From assembly GCF_001050235.1 (NCBI RefSeq), contig NZ_DF967972.1:3562724-3626723 (forward strand): a stretch of DNA of 64,000 bases, read 5' to 3'. Made by a program: the position numbers and the translations under genes. The notes below the pieces were generated by a model. It was not told where the DNA came from, searched no databases, and worked only from the letters and a program-made list of their open reading frames with translations. Positions 29,539-48,454 of this stretch are shown here, in pieces (position 1 is the first letter of the stretch; each line of letters begins with the position of its first letter). The stretch is from Longilinea arvoryzae (lineage in GTDB: Bacteria; Chloroflexota; Anaerolineae; Anaerolineales; Anaerolineaceae).

Positions 29539-29579
29539 GCGGACACATTCTCCAGACAAGGTCAGGGGAATGTGTCCGC
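29539..29579. repeat. Inverted repeat between convergent gene ends
   Basis: GCGGACACATTC (29539-29550) and GAATGTGTCCGC (29568-29579) are perfectly complementary, with a 17-base loop. It lies between the end of the ParB-like gene and the end of the minus-strand 74-aa gene. No T-tract follows on either strand, so intrinsic termination is uncertain; an mRNA 3'-end stabiliser is equally possible. Confidence 0.6.
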
Positions 29580-29638: not shown

Positions 29639-29863
29639 TCAATGTTCCAACAGCCCGATCCAGAGATGATTGGGCAAAACCATCTGGCTGCCGCGAATTT
29701 CGATACCGTCGCAGCGCTGCGTCTCTTTGACAGCGCTTGGATGGACGAAACACACCTCGGGTTTCTTGCCGTACTTCTTCTGATAATAATCGGCGGCCCG
29801 CGAGACCTTGGCAGGCAGATCGCTGCGTGGATCATTGTCGAACCATAACATGCCTGTTTCCAT
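29639..29863 (-). CDS. Small hypothetical protein (74 aa) linked to FtsK-like gene
   Basis: An unrecognised 74-residue soluble protein beginning METGMLWFDNDP and containing two Cys and several Lys/Tyr residues in the middle (AADYYQKKYGKKPEVCFV). On the minus strand AGGAG lies 8 bp before ATG 29863, which fixes this start over a longer frame that would overlap the upstream gene. It follows the FtsK-like gene by 14 bp in the same direction, so both are made from one transcript. I infer a protein partner or accessory role only from that linkage. Confidence 0.6.
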   Translation of the reverse strand: METGMLWFDNDPRSDLPAKVSRAADYYQKKYGKKPEVCFVHPSAVKETQRCDGIEIRGSQMVLPNHLWIGLLEH

Positions 29864-29877
29864 GGTAGCTTCTCCTT

Positions 29878-30678
29878 TTATCGGCCAGGAAGCCAGAAAT
29901 TCATCCAATTTCGCTGAATACGCACACAGAACTGCTGGGTGGGGTGAAACGAACCTGTATCCGGCGGGCGGGTATTGGCCAGCCAGGTCGAATGGAAGGG
30001 ATCGTTCACATAACCCAGGATTCGCGTTCGAAAGGCGCCTATAAATGGATCATTTTGTTCGACCTTTTCAGGCTGAATCGCGGCCAGGGTCCACATGCGG
30101 TGCCTGGCGCCCTCTTTGGCGAACCACTGGAAATTGATCTGGACATCGAAATCCACCCGGTTGAGATAATCGATATCGTCCACCAGCAACAGGTGAATTC
30201 CACCTCGAGTCCGGCCATTCATGCGCTGATCGAGAATCCGGCTGAAGCGTAGAATGGCGGGACCGGAGGCGCGGTCGAAGACCGGCAAGATTTCGAGGAT
30301 ATGTTGCCCGGCCAATGCCTGAAACGGCTGCCAGGCACTCGGATCTCGTGAGACAACCAGGATATTCAGATCGTTCGCCGTCGTACAGATCAGGGTCGAA
30401 AGAAGGGCCGTCTGGAGCAACCGGGTGCTCCCTTCGATGTGGGTGCTTCCCACCAGCACCGAACCCGGATTGGGATCCGTTAAATCCAGTAAGATCGGCA
30501 AACCATCTTCGCAGACGCCCAGGACGGCGGTGGATTCGGGCAGATATGGATGGCGTTGGAGGATTTCCTCGAGGCTCAGCGTAGCGAATGGATTGGCTAT
30601 CTCCACCACCGGCGCCACCTGGAAATTCAGGGGCCGGATCGTCTTTCCTTTGATTTGAGGCAGGTTTTGAACAGCCAT
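29878..30678 (-). CDS. Degenerate FtsK/HerA-like ATPase domain protein
   Basis: A 266-residue protein with the frame of an FtsK/SpoIIIE-type ATPase domain but a damaged nucleotide site. The expected Walker A region reads VGSTHIEGSTRLLQTALL (from V76), in which the GKS/T triplet is missing, whereas the Walker B strand is clear (IHLLLVDDID, 161-170) and an arginine-rich segment precedes it. No membrane helix is present, unlike true FtsK. The start at 30678 has AAGGTG 6 bp upstream, and a good minus-strand promoter lies just beyond. It is the first gene of a two-gene operon with the 74-aa protein. It may bind but not hydrolyse nucleotide, or act as a structural adaptor; this is inference. Confidence 0.65.
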   Translation of the reverse strand: MAVQNLPQIKGKTIRPLNFQVAPVVEIANPFATLSLEEILQRHPYLPESTAVLGVCEDGLPILLDLTDPNPGSVLVGSTHIEGSTRLLQTALLSTLICTTANDLNILVVSRDPSAWQPFQALAGQHILEILPVFDRASGPAILRFSRILDQRMNGRTRGGIHLLLVDDIDYLNRVDFDVQINFQWFAKEGARHRMWTLAAIQPEKVEQNDPFIGAFRTRILGYVNDPFHSTWLANTRPPDTGSFHPTQQFCVRIQRNWMNFWLPGR

Positions 30679-30712: not shown

Positions 30713-30740
30713 ATTATACCTGAATAGAACATATTTTCAA
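30713..30740 (-). promoter_or_regulatory. Promoter of the FtsK-like operon
   Basis: Minus-strand TTGAAA (30740-30735), a 16-bp spacer and TATAAT (30718-30713) make a near-consensus promoter about 35 bp upstream of the start codon. Confidence 0.7.
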
Positions 30741-30838: not shown

Positions 30839-31687
30839 ATGGTCGATTATGCTCATCCAGAAGTTCTCGTCGAAACGGAATGGGTCGCCAGGCACCTGGA
30901 CGATCCTAAAGTTCGCCTGGCCGAATCGAACGAGGATTATCTGTTATACGACACAGGCCATATTCCCGGCGCCGTGAAAGTGGACTGGTTTACCACCCTG
31001 CAGGACCCACTCCGGCGCGAATTTATCGACAAGGCCGGCTTTGAAAGGCTTTGCTCAACCCTCGGCATCGACCGCGATACCCTGGTGGTCTTCTACGGCG
31101 ACCGGAACAACTGGTTCGCGTGTTACGCCTTCTGGCTTTTCGAATACTACGGACATCCGCAGTTGAAGATTCTAAACGGCGGGCGCATGAAATGGTTCAA
31201 AGAGAATCGTCCGGTCTCGATGGAGTTTCCCAAGTTCCCGCAAACGAATTACAAAGCATCCAAACCCGACCTGTCCATTCGCGCTTTCCGGGATCAGGTG
31301 CTGGCTCACGTGCAGCAGCACGGCGCACTTGTGGACGTGCGTTCCCCGGGCGAATACAGCGGCGAACTGTTGCACATGCCCAATTACCCGCAGGAAGGCG
31401 CCATGCGCGGCGGGCATATCCCCGGCGCAATGAACATCCCCTGGTCGCAGGCCATCGATGAAATCGACGGCACCTTCAAGCCCGATGAAGAACTGACCCG
31501 GCTGTACCTGGGCAAGCATAACCTCGATCCGAAAAAAGAGACCATCGCCTATTGCCGGATCGGCGAACGCAGCTCGCACACCTGGTTCGTCCTGAAGTAT
31601 CTGTTGGGTTTCGAAAACGTTCGGAATTACGACGGTTCCTGGACGGAATGGGGCAACCTGGTCGGCGCCCCGATCGAAAAAGGATAA
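30839..31687 (+). CDS. sseA: Sulfurtransferase (rhodanese, thiosulfate/3-mercaptopyruvate type)
   Basis: Two-domain rhodanese of 282 residues. The N-terminal domain is catalytically inactive (no Cys at the loop; [17 protein letters not shown]). The C-terminal domain carries active-site Cys239 in the loop CRIGERSS, the sequence form typical of thiosulfate sulfurtransferases. [14 protein letters not shown] marks the second domain start. Neighbouring the SufU-like gene (11 bp downstream), it may supply sulfur to iron-sulfur assembly. AAGGAG at 30827-30832 supports the start. The symbol is by family and does not prove substrate preference. Confidence 0.92.
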
Positions 31688-31698
31688 GAAAAGACACC

Positions 31699-32091
31699 AT
31701 GGATCGCAGCGAAATTCTGGAAATGGTCCTCGATCATTACCATAACCCGCACAATCGAGGTGAATTGACGGATGCGAACGCCATCTGGAATGGTGGGCTG
31801 CCCGGTTGCAGCGATATCGTCACCACTTACTTGAAGATCGAAAACGGGCGCATCATCGGGGCCGCTTTCACCGGCGAAGGCTGCACCATCAGCCAGGCGG
31901 CCACCTCGATGCTTACGGAAGAACTGGTCGGTCAGGATGTCGAAGCTGTCGCCGGGTTGGACCAATCCACGGTGGTGAATTTACTGGGAAAAGAACTGGT
32001 ACAAACGCGGCCGCGCTGCGCCACCCTGGGCCTGGATACCTTCCGCGCCGCGGCTCAGGAATATATGCGCCTGCACCCGACGAAGCCATAG
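31699..32091 (+). CDS. sufU: SufU/IscU-type iron-sulfur scaffold protein
   Basis: A 130-residue NifU-N-family protein of the SUF system that receives sulfur from cysteine desulfurase and assembles or passes Fe-S clusters. Three conserved cysteines are seen: C37 (GLPGCSDIV), C62 (GEGCTISQAATSML) and C107 (PRCATLGLDTFRAA); the Asp in GCSD marks the SufU subgroup. ATG 31699 is in a short gap after the rhodanese; a longer frame would overlap that gene. No SufS/SufBCD genes are visible in the window, so the remainder of the pathway lies elsewhere. A terminator follows. Confidence 0.92.
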   Translation: MDRSEILEMVLDHYHNPHNRGELTDANAIWNGGLPGCSDIVTTYLKIENGRIIGAAFTGEGCTISQAATSMLTEELVGQDVEAVAGLDQSTVVNLLGKELVQTRPRCATLGLDTFRAAAQEYMRLHPTKP

Positions 32092-32110
32092 ATTTCTTAC
32101 GATTGCCGGA

Positions 32111-32165
32111 AAGCTGCATATCAGGTGATCCAGATGAAAGGAGGGCCTGAAATGTAGCTTTTTTT
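32111..32165 (+). terminator. Rho-independent terminator after sufU
   Basis: AGCTGCAT (32112-32119) and TCAGG (32121-32125) pair with CCTGA (32146-32150) and ATGTAGCT (32152-32159), with one A-A mismatch and a 20-base loop, then seven T's (32159-32165). Confidence 0.7.
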
Positions 32166-32191
32166 ACTATTTTAAGGTATCCTTATAGGCG

Positions 32192-32220
32192 TTTGCAGGC
32201 AAGAATTCTATTCCTGCAAA
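32192..32220 (+). repeat. Inverted repeat in the frr leader
   Basis: TTTGCAGG (32192-32199) and CCTGCAAA (32213-32220) form a perfect 8-bp stem with a 13-base A/T-rich loop containing GAATTC, 48 bases before the frr start. It could be an operator or a leader hairpin. Confidence 0.5.
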
Positions 32221-32267
32221 TAAAAAGAAAACCCAAAGCCGGAATAAAACTGCATAGGGAGGCCAGT

Positions 32268-32825
32268 GTGATTAAAGAAACGGTAAAAGAAGCTGAAACT
32301 CGCATGAAGGGCGCCCTTCAGAATCTCGAAGATAGTCTCGCGACGATTCGAACTGGACGCGCCAGCCCTGCTTTGGTCGAAAAACTACCGATCGACTATT
32401 ACGGAGCCCCCACGCCCTTGATGCAGTTGGCCAGCATCAGTGTCCCCGAACCACGCACCTTGATGATTCGACCATTCGATGCCTCCAGCCTTAAAACGAT
32501 CGAACGCGCTATCATTGCCTCCGATCTGGGTCTGACGCCCAACAATGACGGCCGGGTCATTCGCCTGAATCTACCGCCCCTGACGGAAGAGCGCCGCCGC
32601 GACCTGGTCAAGATCGTCCACAGCCGCCTGGAAGAATGCCGCGTTTCCATCCGAAATGTTCGTCGCGATTTGCTTAAGGATTTGCGTGAATTCGAGCACG
32701 AGAAGATGATTTCCGAAGATGACCTCAAACGAGGCGAGGAAGAGCTTCAGAAATTAACCGATAAAATGATTGCGCAAACAGAGGAAATCGGCGAACGTAA
32801 AGAAAAGGAAATCCTGGAAGTGTAA
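32268..32825 (+). CDS. frr: Ribosome recycling factor
   Basis: Splits post-termination ribosomes together with EF-G. The GTG start at 32268, preceded by AGGGAGG (32256-32262), gives exactly 185 residues, the family length. A longer frame beginning at 32193 would run through the leader hairpin. Conserved segments are LEDSLATIRTGRASPALVEK, IPYYG-like IDYYGAPTPLMQLAS, and VRRDLLKDLREFEHEKMISED. It is unusual that tsf and pyrH, its usual neighbours, do not precede it. uppS follows 16 bp later, cdsA next, as in many bacteria. Confidence 0.95.
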   Translation: MIKETVKEAETRMKGALQNLEDSLATIRTGRASPALVEKLPIDYYGAPTPLMQLASISVPEPRTLMIRPFDASSLKTIERAIIASDLGLTPNNDGRVIRLNLPPLTEERRRDLVKIVHSRLEECRVSIRNVRRDLLKDLREFEHEKMISEDDLKRGEEELQKLTDKMIAQTEEIGERKEKEILEV

Positions 32826-32841
32826 GCTTCCTATTCGTTCG

Positions 32842-33585
32842 ATGGACCAATCCCAACCCTCCAATTCGTCTGCTGATCTACCAGCCAAAACCCCTACGCA
32901 TATTGCCATCATCATGGATGGAAATGGTCGTTGGGCGGCAGCCCGTGGCCTTCCACGACTGGCGGGTCATCGCGCCGGCACCGAAAACTTGCGCCGCGTG
33001 ATCCGAGCATGTGTGGAGTTTGGAATCCAGTATCTGACCATTTATGCGTTTTCCACTGAAAACTGGGGCCGTCCCAGCGATGAGGTGGAAGGCCTGATGC
33101 ATATCCTTTCCGAAGTCATCGATAACGAACTCGAAGAATTGAACAGTGAAGGCGTCCAGATCCGCCACATCGGTCGCATCGACCGCATGGAAGAGGATGT
33201 GCGCAATAAAGTTCTTCATGCGGTCGAGGTGACCCGCCTCAATCACCGCCTGGTGTTATCCGTAGCCTGGAATTACGGCGGGCGCGATGAAATCGTCTAC
33301 GCCATCCAACGCATGATCGCGGATGGGAAACGCCCCGACGAGATCGATGATGAACTGATTGCCCAGTACCTGTTTACGGCCGGCATGCCGGATCCCGATC
33401 TGGTCATCCGCACCTCCGGAGAAATGCGCGTCAGCAATTTCCTGACCTGGCAATCGGTCTATTCGGAATGGTACTTCACCCCAACTCTGTGGCCTGATTT
33501 CGACAAAGAAGAGTTGCGGAAAGCGCTCGAGGTTTACAGCCAACGCGATCGGCGTTTTGGCCGGTTATCCACTACTGGGTGTTAA
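32842..33585 (+). CDS. uppS: Isoprenyl (undecaprenyl-type) diphosphate synthase
   Basis: cis-Prenyltransferase that makes the C55 lipid carrier for cell-wall precursors. The ATG at 32842 gives 247 residues. Family motifs: IAIIMDGNGRWAAARGLPRL (catalytic Asp in MDGNGRW), the GH in LAGHRAG, YAFSTENWGRP, and the C-terminal LVIRTSGEMRVSNFLTWQ with Tyr-Ser-Glu-Trp-Tyr following. Its place between frr and cdsA is classic. An upstream in-frame extension into frr is rejected. No unusual residue is seen. Confidence 0.95.
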   Translation: MDQSQPSNSSADLPAKTPTHIAIIMDGNGRWAAARGLPRLAGHRAGTENLRRVIRACVEFGIQYLTIYAFSTENWGRPSDEVEGLMHILSEVIDNELEELNSEGVQIRHIGRIDRMEEDVRNKVLHAVEVTRLNHRLVLSVAWNYGGRDEIVYAIQRMIADGKRPDEIDDELIAQYLFTAGMPDPDLVIRTSGEMRVSNFLTWQSVYSEWYFTPTLWPDFDKEELRKALEVYSQRDRRFGRLSTTGC

Positions 33586-33595
33586 AGGGGGCCTG

Positions 33596-34402
33596 ATGTT
33601 AACCCAACGCCTGTTGGTAGCAATCCTGATGATTCCGATCGGCGTGACATTTATCGCGTTGGGCGGGTGGCCATTTGCGTTATTGATCATGGCCGTGATG
33701 GGTGTGGCTGCCTGGGAATACTGGCGCATCTTCAAGACCGGCGGATATTCAGCCTCGGCGGCGCTGGTGGTGGGTGGGACGGCAATACTCGTCCTCACCC
33801 GTTTTTTATTGGGCTTCCGTGAAGCGGATGCCGTACTGGCCGGGCTAGTCCTGGCCAGTCTGGTGCTCCACACCTTCCTCCACGAGAACGGCTCCGATCA
33901 TTCGGCTACCGATTTTGCTATAACCATTTCCGGCCTTCTATACATCGGTTGGTTGGGTAGTTATATGGTTTCGTTGCGCAACCTGCCCGACGGCCTGTGG
34001 TGGACTCTGTTGGTCGTTCCAGGCACAGGCCTGGCGGATGCAGGCGCTTATTTCGTAGGCAGTCACCTGGGCAAGCACCCGCTTGCGCCGCGCGTCAGTC
34101 CCAAGAAAACCTGGGAAGGTTATATCGGTGGAATCGTCATTGGCTCCCTGGGGTGCGCTTTGATGGGTGCATTATGGGGTATCATGACCCCTGCCATCAC
34201 GCCGCTGCGGGGTTTGATTTTGGGCTTCGTGCTTTCCACGCTAAGTATTTTGGGCGACCTGGGGGAGAGCATGATCAAGCGACAGTTCAACGTCAAGGAC
34301 TCAAGCCATCTCCTCCCGGGGCATGGCGGCATCTTCGATCGGATCGATTCCTGGTTATGGGCCGCCCCCATTGGGTTCTATCTGATCCTCTGGTTGTGGT
34401 AA
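33596..34402 (+). CDS. cdsA: Phosphatidate cytidylyltransferase
   Basis: Integral membrane enzyme making CDP-diacylglycerol for phospholipid synthesis. The 268-residue protein has about seven transmembrane helices, starting within residues 5-35. The C-terminal signature ends the protein: KKTWEGYIGGIVIGS, then LGDLGESMIKRQFNVKDSSH and LPGHGGIFDRIDS, with the acidic metal-binding residues intact. ATG 33596 is 10 bp after the uppS stop and has a GGGG ribosome-binding site. The usual next gene, dxr, is absent; glpX occurs instead after about 55 bp. Confidence 0.95.
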   Translation: MLTQRLLVAILMIPIGVTFIALGGWPFALLIMAVMGVAAWEYWRIFKTGGYSASAALVVGGTAILVLTRFLLGFREADAVLAGLVLASLVLHTFLHENGSDHSATDFAITISGLLYIGWLGSYMVSLRNLPDGLWWTLLVVPGTGLADAGAYFVGSHLGKHPLAPRVSPKKTWEGYIGGIVIGSLGCALMGALWGIMTPAITPLRGLILGFVLSTLSILGDLGESMIKRQFNVKDSSHLLPGHGGIFDRIDSWLWAAPIGFYLILWLW

Positions 34403-48299: not shown

Positions 48300-48360
48300 G
48301 AGCTACTCCTAAAGAAGGACGTTTACGCGATTTGTATCCGACCACATCGACACTCACAGG

Positions 48361-48454
48361 CGGGAATGGATGGGAGTCGAACCCACCGCGGCCCGCAACG
48401 CGACCCACCACCGGTTTTGAAGACCGGGGAGCCCACCGGAACTCAGCCACTCCC
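48361..48454 (-). tRNA. selC: tRNA-Sec (anticodon UCA)
   Basis: Read on the minus strand, the RNA has an 8-bp acceptor stem (GGGAGTGG with CCATTCCC), a 5-bp anticodon stem (CCGGT/ACCGG) and the loop CUUCAAA, whose anticodon UCA decodes UGA. The T-arm is a 5-bp stem with the loop TTCGACT, giving the 8+5 acceptor-T arrangement of bacterial tRNA-Sec. A long variable arm (about 20 bases, GGTCGC pairing with GCGGGCC) lies between. The D-loop contains TCCGGTGG as in E. coli selC. The discriminator is G; CCA is not encoded. A promoter is placed so that transcription should begin at or next to the mature 5' end. Confidence 0.92.

Follow-up and report, generated by a model that had tools for sequence, protein, structure and literature searches.

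Two adjacent genes in a 64,000-nt stretch of the Longilinea arvoryzae genome (the window) encode a 266-aa protein, here called BIG, and a 74-aa protein, here called SMALL, and this pair is a variant of the FtsK/EccC fold coupled to an uncharacterised Chloroflexota family. Our best explanation, which in our judgement could go either way, is that BIG is a soluble, free-standing FtsK-type motor core that has lost catalysis and now serves SMALL, its operon partner, as a platform of a structural or regulatory kind. BIG keeps the FtsK/EccC RecA fold, by structure prediction, but would no longer hydrolyse ATP, the two proteins would touch, and BIG would hold or position SMALL rather than move a polymer. 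In such an arrangement, SMALL would be the conserved worker, and BIG a non-hydrolysing platform or regulator that holds it. Since a degenerate FtsK-like protein with lost ATPase motifs is found with a conserved partner gene, an adaptor or scaffold role seems reasonable from the sequences.

Gene layout and regulatory sites

The host genome comprises 4.44 Mb in two contigs. Both ORFs lie on the minus strand of the window, BIG at 29878-30678 and SMALL at 29639-29863, and 14 nt separate the stop codon of BIG from the start codon of SMALL (AAAAGGAG at the gap), just as a preliminary description of this DNA had it. A Shine-Dalgarno-like GGAG, read directly from the sequence, is located ahead of SMALL within this gap (29872-29875, minus strand). 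The same description had proposed a promoter for both genes, and a sigma-70-type promoter-like site (TTGAAA-16-TATAAT, 30713-30740, minus strand), recognized by consensus matching only, with 11 of 12 matches, does precede BIG. It is the best among the 7 sites found in a consensus scan, where shuffles give 1.3, and 34 nt lie between its end and the start of BIG, in the space common to a divergent rhodanese-like gene.

An inverted repeat search detected a hairpin with 19-nt arms that are 89% complementary (29539-29579, no strand assigned) between SMALL and a convergent gene, and this hairpin is possibly a terminator that the two genes share. A terminator scan listed nothing after SMALL and missed this hairpin. 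Divergent from BIG, on the plus strand, are the rhodanese-like gene and NifU-like, frr, uppS and cdsA genes (30839-34402), all named by eye. Throughout this work, neighbouring genes were called simply as longest ORFs and named by eye unless the name is backed by Pfam, and small genes, start positions and names may be wrong. The window also contains a selenocysteine tRNA gene (48359-48454, minus strand).

Fold of BIG and the question of type VII secretion

The AlphaFold model of BIG (pLDDT 92.4, pTM 0.87) has the FtsK-type RecA fold. It resembles FtsK (6t8o; Z 23.8, rmsd 2.4 Å over 230 residues), EccCb1-D2 (9jv8; Z 23.1), the EccC/EssC D2/D3 rows (Z 19-23) and TcpA (Z 22.7), and among the 1000 chains compared it is nearer to FtsK than to HerA, whose best row has a Z of 17.6. 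Since the predicted structure matches FtsK, the guess of an FtsK-like protein, originally made from the strand pattern, is borne out as to fold.

The sequence of the window BIG alone has no convincing family match in Pfam, NCBIfam or PDB, and in Pfam it matches neither PF01580 nor the FtsK_alpha or gamma domain at E up to 1. A DUF4216 match (E 0.044) fell under the cut-off of that family and was set aside as chance. With a profile of 40 BIG relatives, the best PDB matches are EccC proteins of type VII secretion (2.4e-15), and FtsK is matched at 2e-6; PF01580 is matched by 23 of the 40 aligned proteins at E up to 0.1 (best 2e-7). With respect to the FtsK/HerA and EssC families that the preliminary description had brought up, the BIG profile thus matches EccC and FtsK, and HerA ranks lower on structure. 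BIG proteins form one group (SH-aLRT 86) in a tree with EccC and FtsK, in which the branches are long and the position of BIG relative to EccC is not settled. Comparison of BIG with SMALL found no sequence relation between the two.

The closest sequence relatives of BIG that we found are soluble FtsK proteins of 340 aa in other Anaerolineae (L023-L028, L030 and L076), which we term FtsK340. They score 90-133 bits with the BIG profile, as against 36 bits for the EccC and 21 bits for an ordinary FtsK of BIG's own genome. FtsK340 proteins differ from BIG in that they keep GK[ST] and DE, and the two that were scanned carry FtsK_alpha (PF17854, 1.4e-11 and 1.3e-11), which BIG does not. They are similar to BIG in that the gene has the same position before SMALL in two genomes, overlapping it in one (G059) and lying ~0.6 kb away in the other (G038). 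A separate observation concerns G053 (L077:716-3213), where a shorter FtsK-like gene, whose P-loop has GKS, is followed by a DUF6504-like gene (E 5.6e-4, under the cut-off) and then by SMALL, the row being convergent to a holA-like gene.

Known systems resemble BIG to different extents. The FtsK/SpoIIIE motor domain (6t8o, 2iut; PF01580) shares its RecA-type fold over the 230 aligned residues, but BIG is the motor core only (266 aa) and has neither the Walker A lysine nor the catalytic glutamate. The D2 and D3 domains of EccC/EssC and the DUF domain of EccC are, like BIG, FtsK-family domains with degenerate motifs; they are parts of one large protein, whereas BIG is free-standing, paired with SMALL and unlinked to WXG100 genes. 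TcpA, the coupling protein of pCW3 conjugation, also has an FtsK-like fold, but the titles of its entries name bound ATP or ATPgS, while BIG is motif-less. According to one study, the EccC5 DUF domain is degenerate and does not bind ATP, the degenerate D2/D3 domains of EccC/EssC are proposed to be structural or regulatory, and Walker B mutations in such a degenerate domain disturb an M. smegmatis ESX system (PMC11154593). Another study reports that assembly of the translocon depends on EssC D2 and that the D2 Walker residues themselves are required (PMC9436818), so EssC D2 does not provide a precedent for a Walker-less platform. Among the papers listed by searches for degenerate or pseudo-FtsK proteins in Anaerolineae or Chloroflexi, none concerns the BIG-SMALL pair, judging from titles and abstracts.

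The profile matches to EccC (2.4e-15) could mean that BIG and SMALL are accessory parts of a type VII secretion system, BIG being like a detached D2/D3 domain of EccC. L. arvoryzae itself encodes a 1487-aa EccC (matched by PF01580 at C1:1047022-1049214) followed by WXG100 genes, and the D2 and D3 domains of this EccC are degenerate in a similar way to BIG (D1 reads GTTGTGKT/DE, D2 GKT/DN and D3 GRT/DD). However, the pair lies ~2.5 Mb from this locus, where the only two WXG100 matches of the genome are found (C1:1049965 and 1050326), and the FtsK340 proteins outscore EccC with the BIG profile. Co-occurrence also argues against this reading: WXG100 is over its curated cut-off in 14 of 61 genomes, which include 7 of the 22 that have BIG and 7 of the 39 that lack it (Fisher p=0.34), and a looser E of 0.001 gives 8 of 22 versus 10 of 39 (p=0.40). 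For SMALL, WXG100 is found in 9 of 49 genomes with the gene and in 5 of 12 without it (p=0.12). We therefore rejected the link to type VII secretion on WXG100 co-occurrence, and the EssC-like connection drawn in the preliminary description finds no support; an accessory role in this system is very improbable. The type VII secretion-like locus as a whole lies outside the window, at G000:C1:1045369-1050553 (within L240).

Loss of the ATPase motifs and linkage to SMALL

The ATPase motifs were counted in an alignment of 57 proteins (50 BIG proteins and 7 FtsK340 relatives). In this alignment, the degenerate Walker A of the window BIG, STHIEGST (30424-30447, minus strand), stands opposite GDARCGKT; it retains the final G and the T, and the first G and the lysine are gone. 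The pattern [AG]xxxxGK[ST] does not occur in the window BIG. The P-loop is thus without GK[ST], as had been noticed before, and alignment to relatives confirms that the lysine is gone. The Walker B that had been described as kept, IHLLLVDDID, is present at residues 161-170 (30169-30198, minus strand), but its catalytic glutamate is missing: the motif is hhhhDD, not hhhhDE, with aspartate in place of glutamate. This glutamate is found in none of the 50 BIG proteins, versus all 7 FtsK340 proteins.

The P-loop lysine has a more varied pattern, being present in 33 of the 50 BIG proteins and lost in 17, with GK[ST] in 29 and the full GxxxxGK[ST] in 19. On a tree made without the P-loop columns, lysine loss requires 7 changes (6-8 across bootstraps), and strongly supported (starred) branches force no fewer than 3 of them. 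The first BIG tree leaves out proteins of less than 170 aa (L125), and L194 is absent from its alignment; the second leaves out L188, L125 and L179. The simplest order would be that the glutamate was lost first, at the base of BIG, and the lysine then several times. BIG proteins whose P-loop is intact may use ATP binding as a switch, with no turnover, and the window BIG probably has no productive ATP binding. A natural series can be lined up around SMALL: FtsK motors that have both motifs, cores that retain the lysine but not the glutamate, cores that lack both, and loci in which the core is missing. This series would let one ask what an FtsK core does without burning ATP, and the same question applies to the degenerate ATPase domains of type VII systems.

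Matches to SMALL occur at 244 GTDB loci, and the neighbourhood counts use the best 80. In 42 of these 80 loci, BIG lies upstream of SMALL at a distance of no more than 173 nt, and the pairing is therefore more than chance. The gap in the 42 loci has a median of 12.5 nt and is 30 nt or less in 38, 8 of these overlapping (negative gap). In 61 genomes (own genome included), BIG was counted as present at 140 bits or more, a limit chosen after a gap in the scores was seen, and by this limit it occurs in 22, in 20 of which a SMALL match lies 16-68 nt from the BIG match. In G026, BIG and SMALL are on two contigs, and in G054 SMALL is not found on the contig of BIG, even by profile search. SMALL has a match in 49 of the 61 genomes: 21 of the 22 with BIG and 28 of the 39 without it, and the two genes are thus associated (Fisher p=0.041). 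Below the 140-bit limit are BIG-like proteins in G048 (61 bits), G053 (52 bits) and G042 (62 bits, truncated where the contig ends). The one in G048 (L095:6580-7767) is very diverged and without a Pfam match, and it is encoded directly before SMALL, which suggests that the BIG family extends beyond this threshold.

SMALL had been called the dedicated partner of BIG. The gene pair is indeed conserved, as the 42 of 80 loci illustrate, but SMALL is more widespread and also occurs without BIG. SMALL is the conserved core of the pair, both wider in distribution and slower-evolving than BIG. BIG is absent from 38 of the best 80 SMALL loci (one of the 38, L162, ends at a contig end). In 18-19 of these 38, frr, uppS and cdsA (named by eye) lie within 4 kb on the upstream side, while a shared frr slot within 4 kb cannot be claimed for 20 of the 38. 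Also among the 38 loci, a convergent metallophosphoesterase gene is found in 21, acpS in 18 and an M16 peptidase gene in 22, and this arrangement is the same as in the window. In many relatives, the site of SMALL can be recognised by the frr-uppS-cdsA block.

The absence of BIG from these 38 loci, together with its fast evolution, also fits a role that is being lost. The main rival to our preferred reading is accordingly that BIG is a decaying relic, in which SMALL does the work and an old FtsK motor that formerly served it is being lost stepwise, first the glutamate, then the lysine and then the whole gene; we consider this unlikely. It would account for the same chromosomal slot being found with and without BIG, for SMALL being present in 35 of 37 Anaerolineaceae genomes versus 19 of 37 for BIG, and for the long branches of BIG (median end branch 0.61). 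However, the ORFs and their tight spacing are intact, the fold of BIG is predicted with high confidence, and pairs of Walker-less BIG genes have dN/dS ratios well below 1, which makes decay less likely. These ratios (Nei-Gojobori, with dS of 0.8-1.6 in the three Walker-less pairs) are 0.142 for L124/L125 (152 codons), 0.142 for L153/L159 (262 codons) and 0.312 for L128/L126 (276 codons), and from the sequences these pairs look to be under purifying selection. Lysine-bearing BIG pairs give 0.119 (L178/L166) and 0.092 (L136/L145), and SMALL in the same locus pairs gives 0.03-0.11. The ratio of 0.215 between the window BIG and L124 is not to be leaned on (dS 2.28), and dS is saturated, giving no ratio, for SMALL of the window versus L125 and for BIG of L133 versus L149.

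SMALL and mobile elements

SMALL is an orphan family without a Pfam match that is present in several Chloroflexota classes and on mobile elements, and it is a good first target for functional study. Its AlphaFold model (pLDDT 90.0, pTM 0.78) has a strand-helix-strands fold, and in an alignment of 83 of its closer members G4, W7, D9, K30 and G32 are invariant. The 11 members scanned with Pfam gave nothing above cut-off; weak matches to PDDEXK_10 (E 0.14) and SecDF (E 0.24) were set aside as chance. The same was done with the matches of the SMALL profile to solved structures, which were mostly antibody chains (best E 0.17). Across 251 genomes sampled in the phylum Chloroflexota, 55 have a SMALL match. 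Four members in other Chloroflexota (L220, L221, L223 and L224) have C-terminal tails of ~200-430 residues that are rich in Lys, Ala, Pro and Thr; these are reminiscent of histone-like tails and may be real. Judged by eye, the 461-aa SMALL ORF of L177 and the initial 89 residues in L222 result from wrong upstream starts.

The SMALL model has no significant match in PDB, and its best match by VIA is the axial (A) domain of the HK97-fold capsid protein (Z 5.4, rmsd 3.8 over 72 residues). This Z is within the range of common arrangements, and in Foldseek the match has an E of 0.74 and is not the top row. Aligning SMALL with an HK97 capsid profile in hhalign gave 0.1%, which is a weak negative because no more than 8 capsids, all closely related (86-94% identical), went into that profile. 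PHROGs matched the 83 SMALL members with five families, one member each, including phrog_1650 (major head protein, 4.7e-4), and 10 divergent SMALL members had no match to capsid PHROGs. Homology of SMALL to the HK97 capsid A domain is only a lead.

SMALL is also found on 23 viral or mobile contigs of IMG/VR, and BIG is absent from all 23 of these loci. ParA-like genes lie beside SMALL in L102 and L120, and a ParB-like gene precedes it in L122, while the L092 locus, which is element-like, combines SMALL with a large primase-like gene and integrase-like genes (all named by eye). A second copy of BIG, without the P-loop lysine, is flanked by an SSB gene and a ParA gene, each with Pfam support, in G032 (L269:5452-11600). 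This copy is on what looks like an integrated element, and the 13-kb locus has no SMALL match. An FtsK gene as a regular neighbour of SMALL in viral contigs was considered and rejected, PF01580 proteins being present in only 6 of the 23 records; this search missed the FtsK-like protein of L102 (24.9 bits).

Such contexts raise the alternative that BIG and SMALL are a domesticated module, which would have served a mobile element in plasmid or phage maintenance, transfer or counter-defence before the chromosome took it over. The 23 IMG/VR contigs, the L092 locus with its primase- and integrase-like genes, and the second BIG copy beside SSB and ParA are all in line with this idea. SMALL is, however, also a syntenic chromosomal gene in Anaerolineaceae, and outside the class 32 of the 37 sampled genomes that hold it have one match. 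In addition, tblastn with the window SMALL found nothing in a plasmid collection and only two weak phage matches (E 0.7). The elements may accordingly have captured it instead, and we regard domestication of a mobile module as quite unlikely.

Returning to BIG as a platform for SMALL, the process that the pair serves would perhaps be DNA handling (segregation, replication or element maintenance), since the mobile elements on which SMALL and the second BIG copy occur have ParA-, ParB-, SSB-, primase- and FtsK-type genes close by. Against this, the chromosomal neighbours of SMALL have housekeeping functions and give no hint of DNA handling. A bolder and rather doubtful proposal is that the pair is an undescribed DNA-handling module of Chloroflexota, in which a free-standing FtsK motor would have become an ATP-binding switch and then an ATP-independent clamp, independently in several lineages, and in which SMALL, shared with phages and plasmid-like elements, would carry the function.

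Certain genes recur with SMALL on the IMG/VR contigs (L101-L123), namely a large primase-like cluster (c24), an FtsK-like cluster (c23) and ParA-/ParB-like clusters, and these contigs may belong to related elements.
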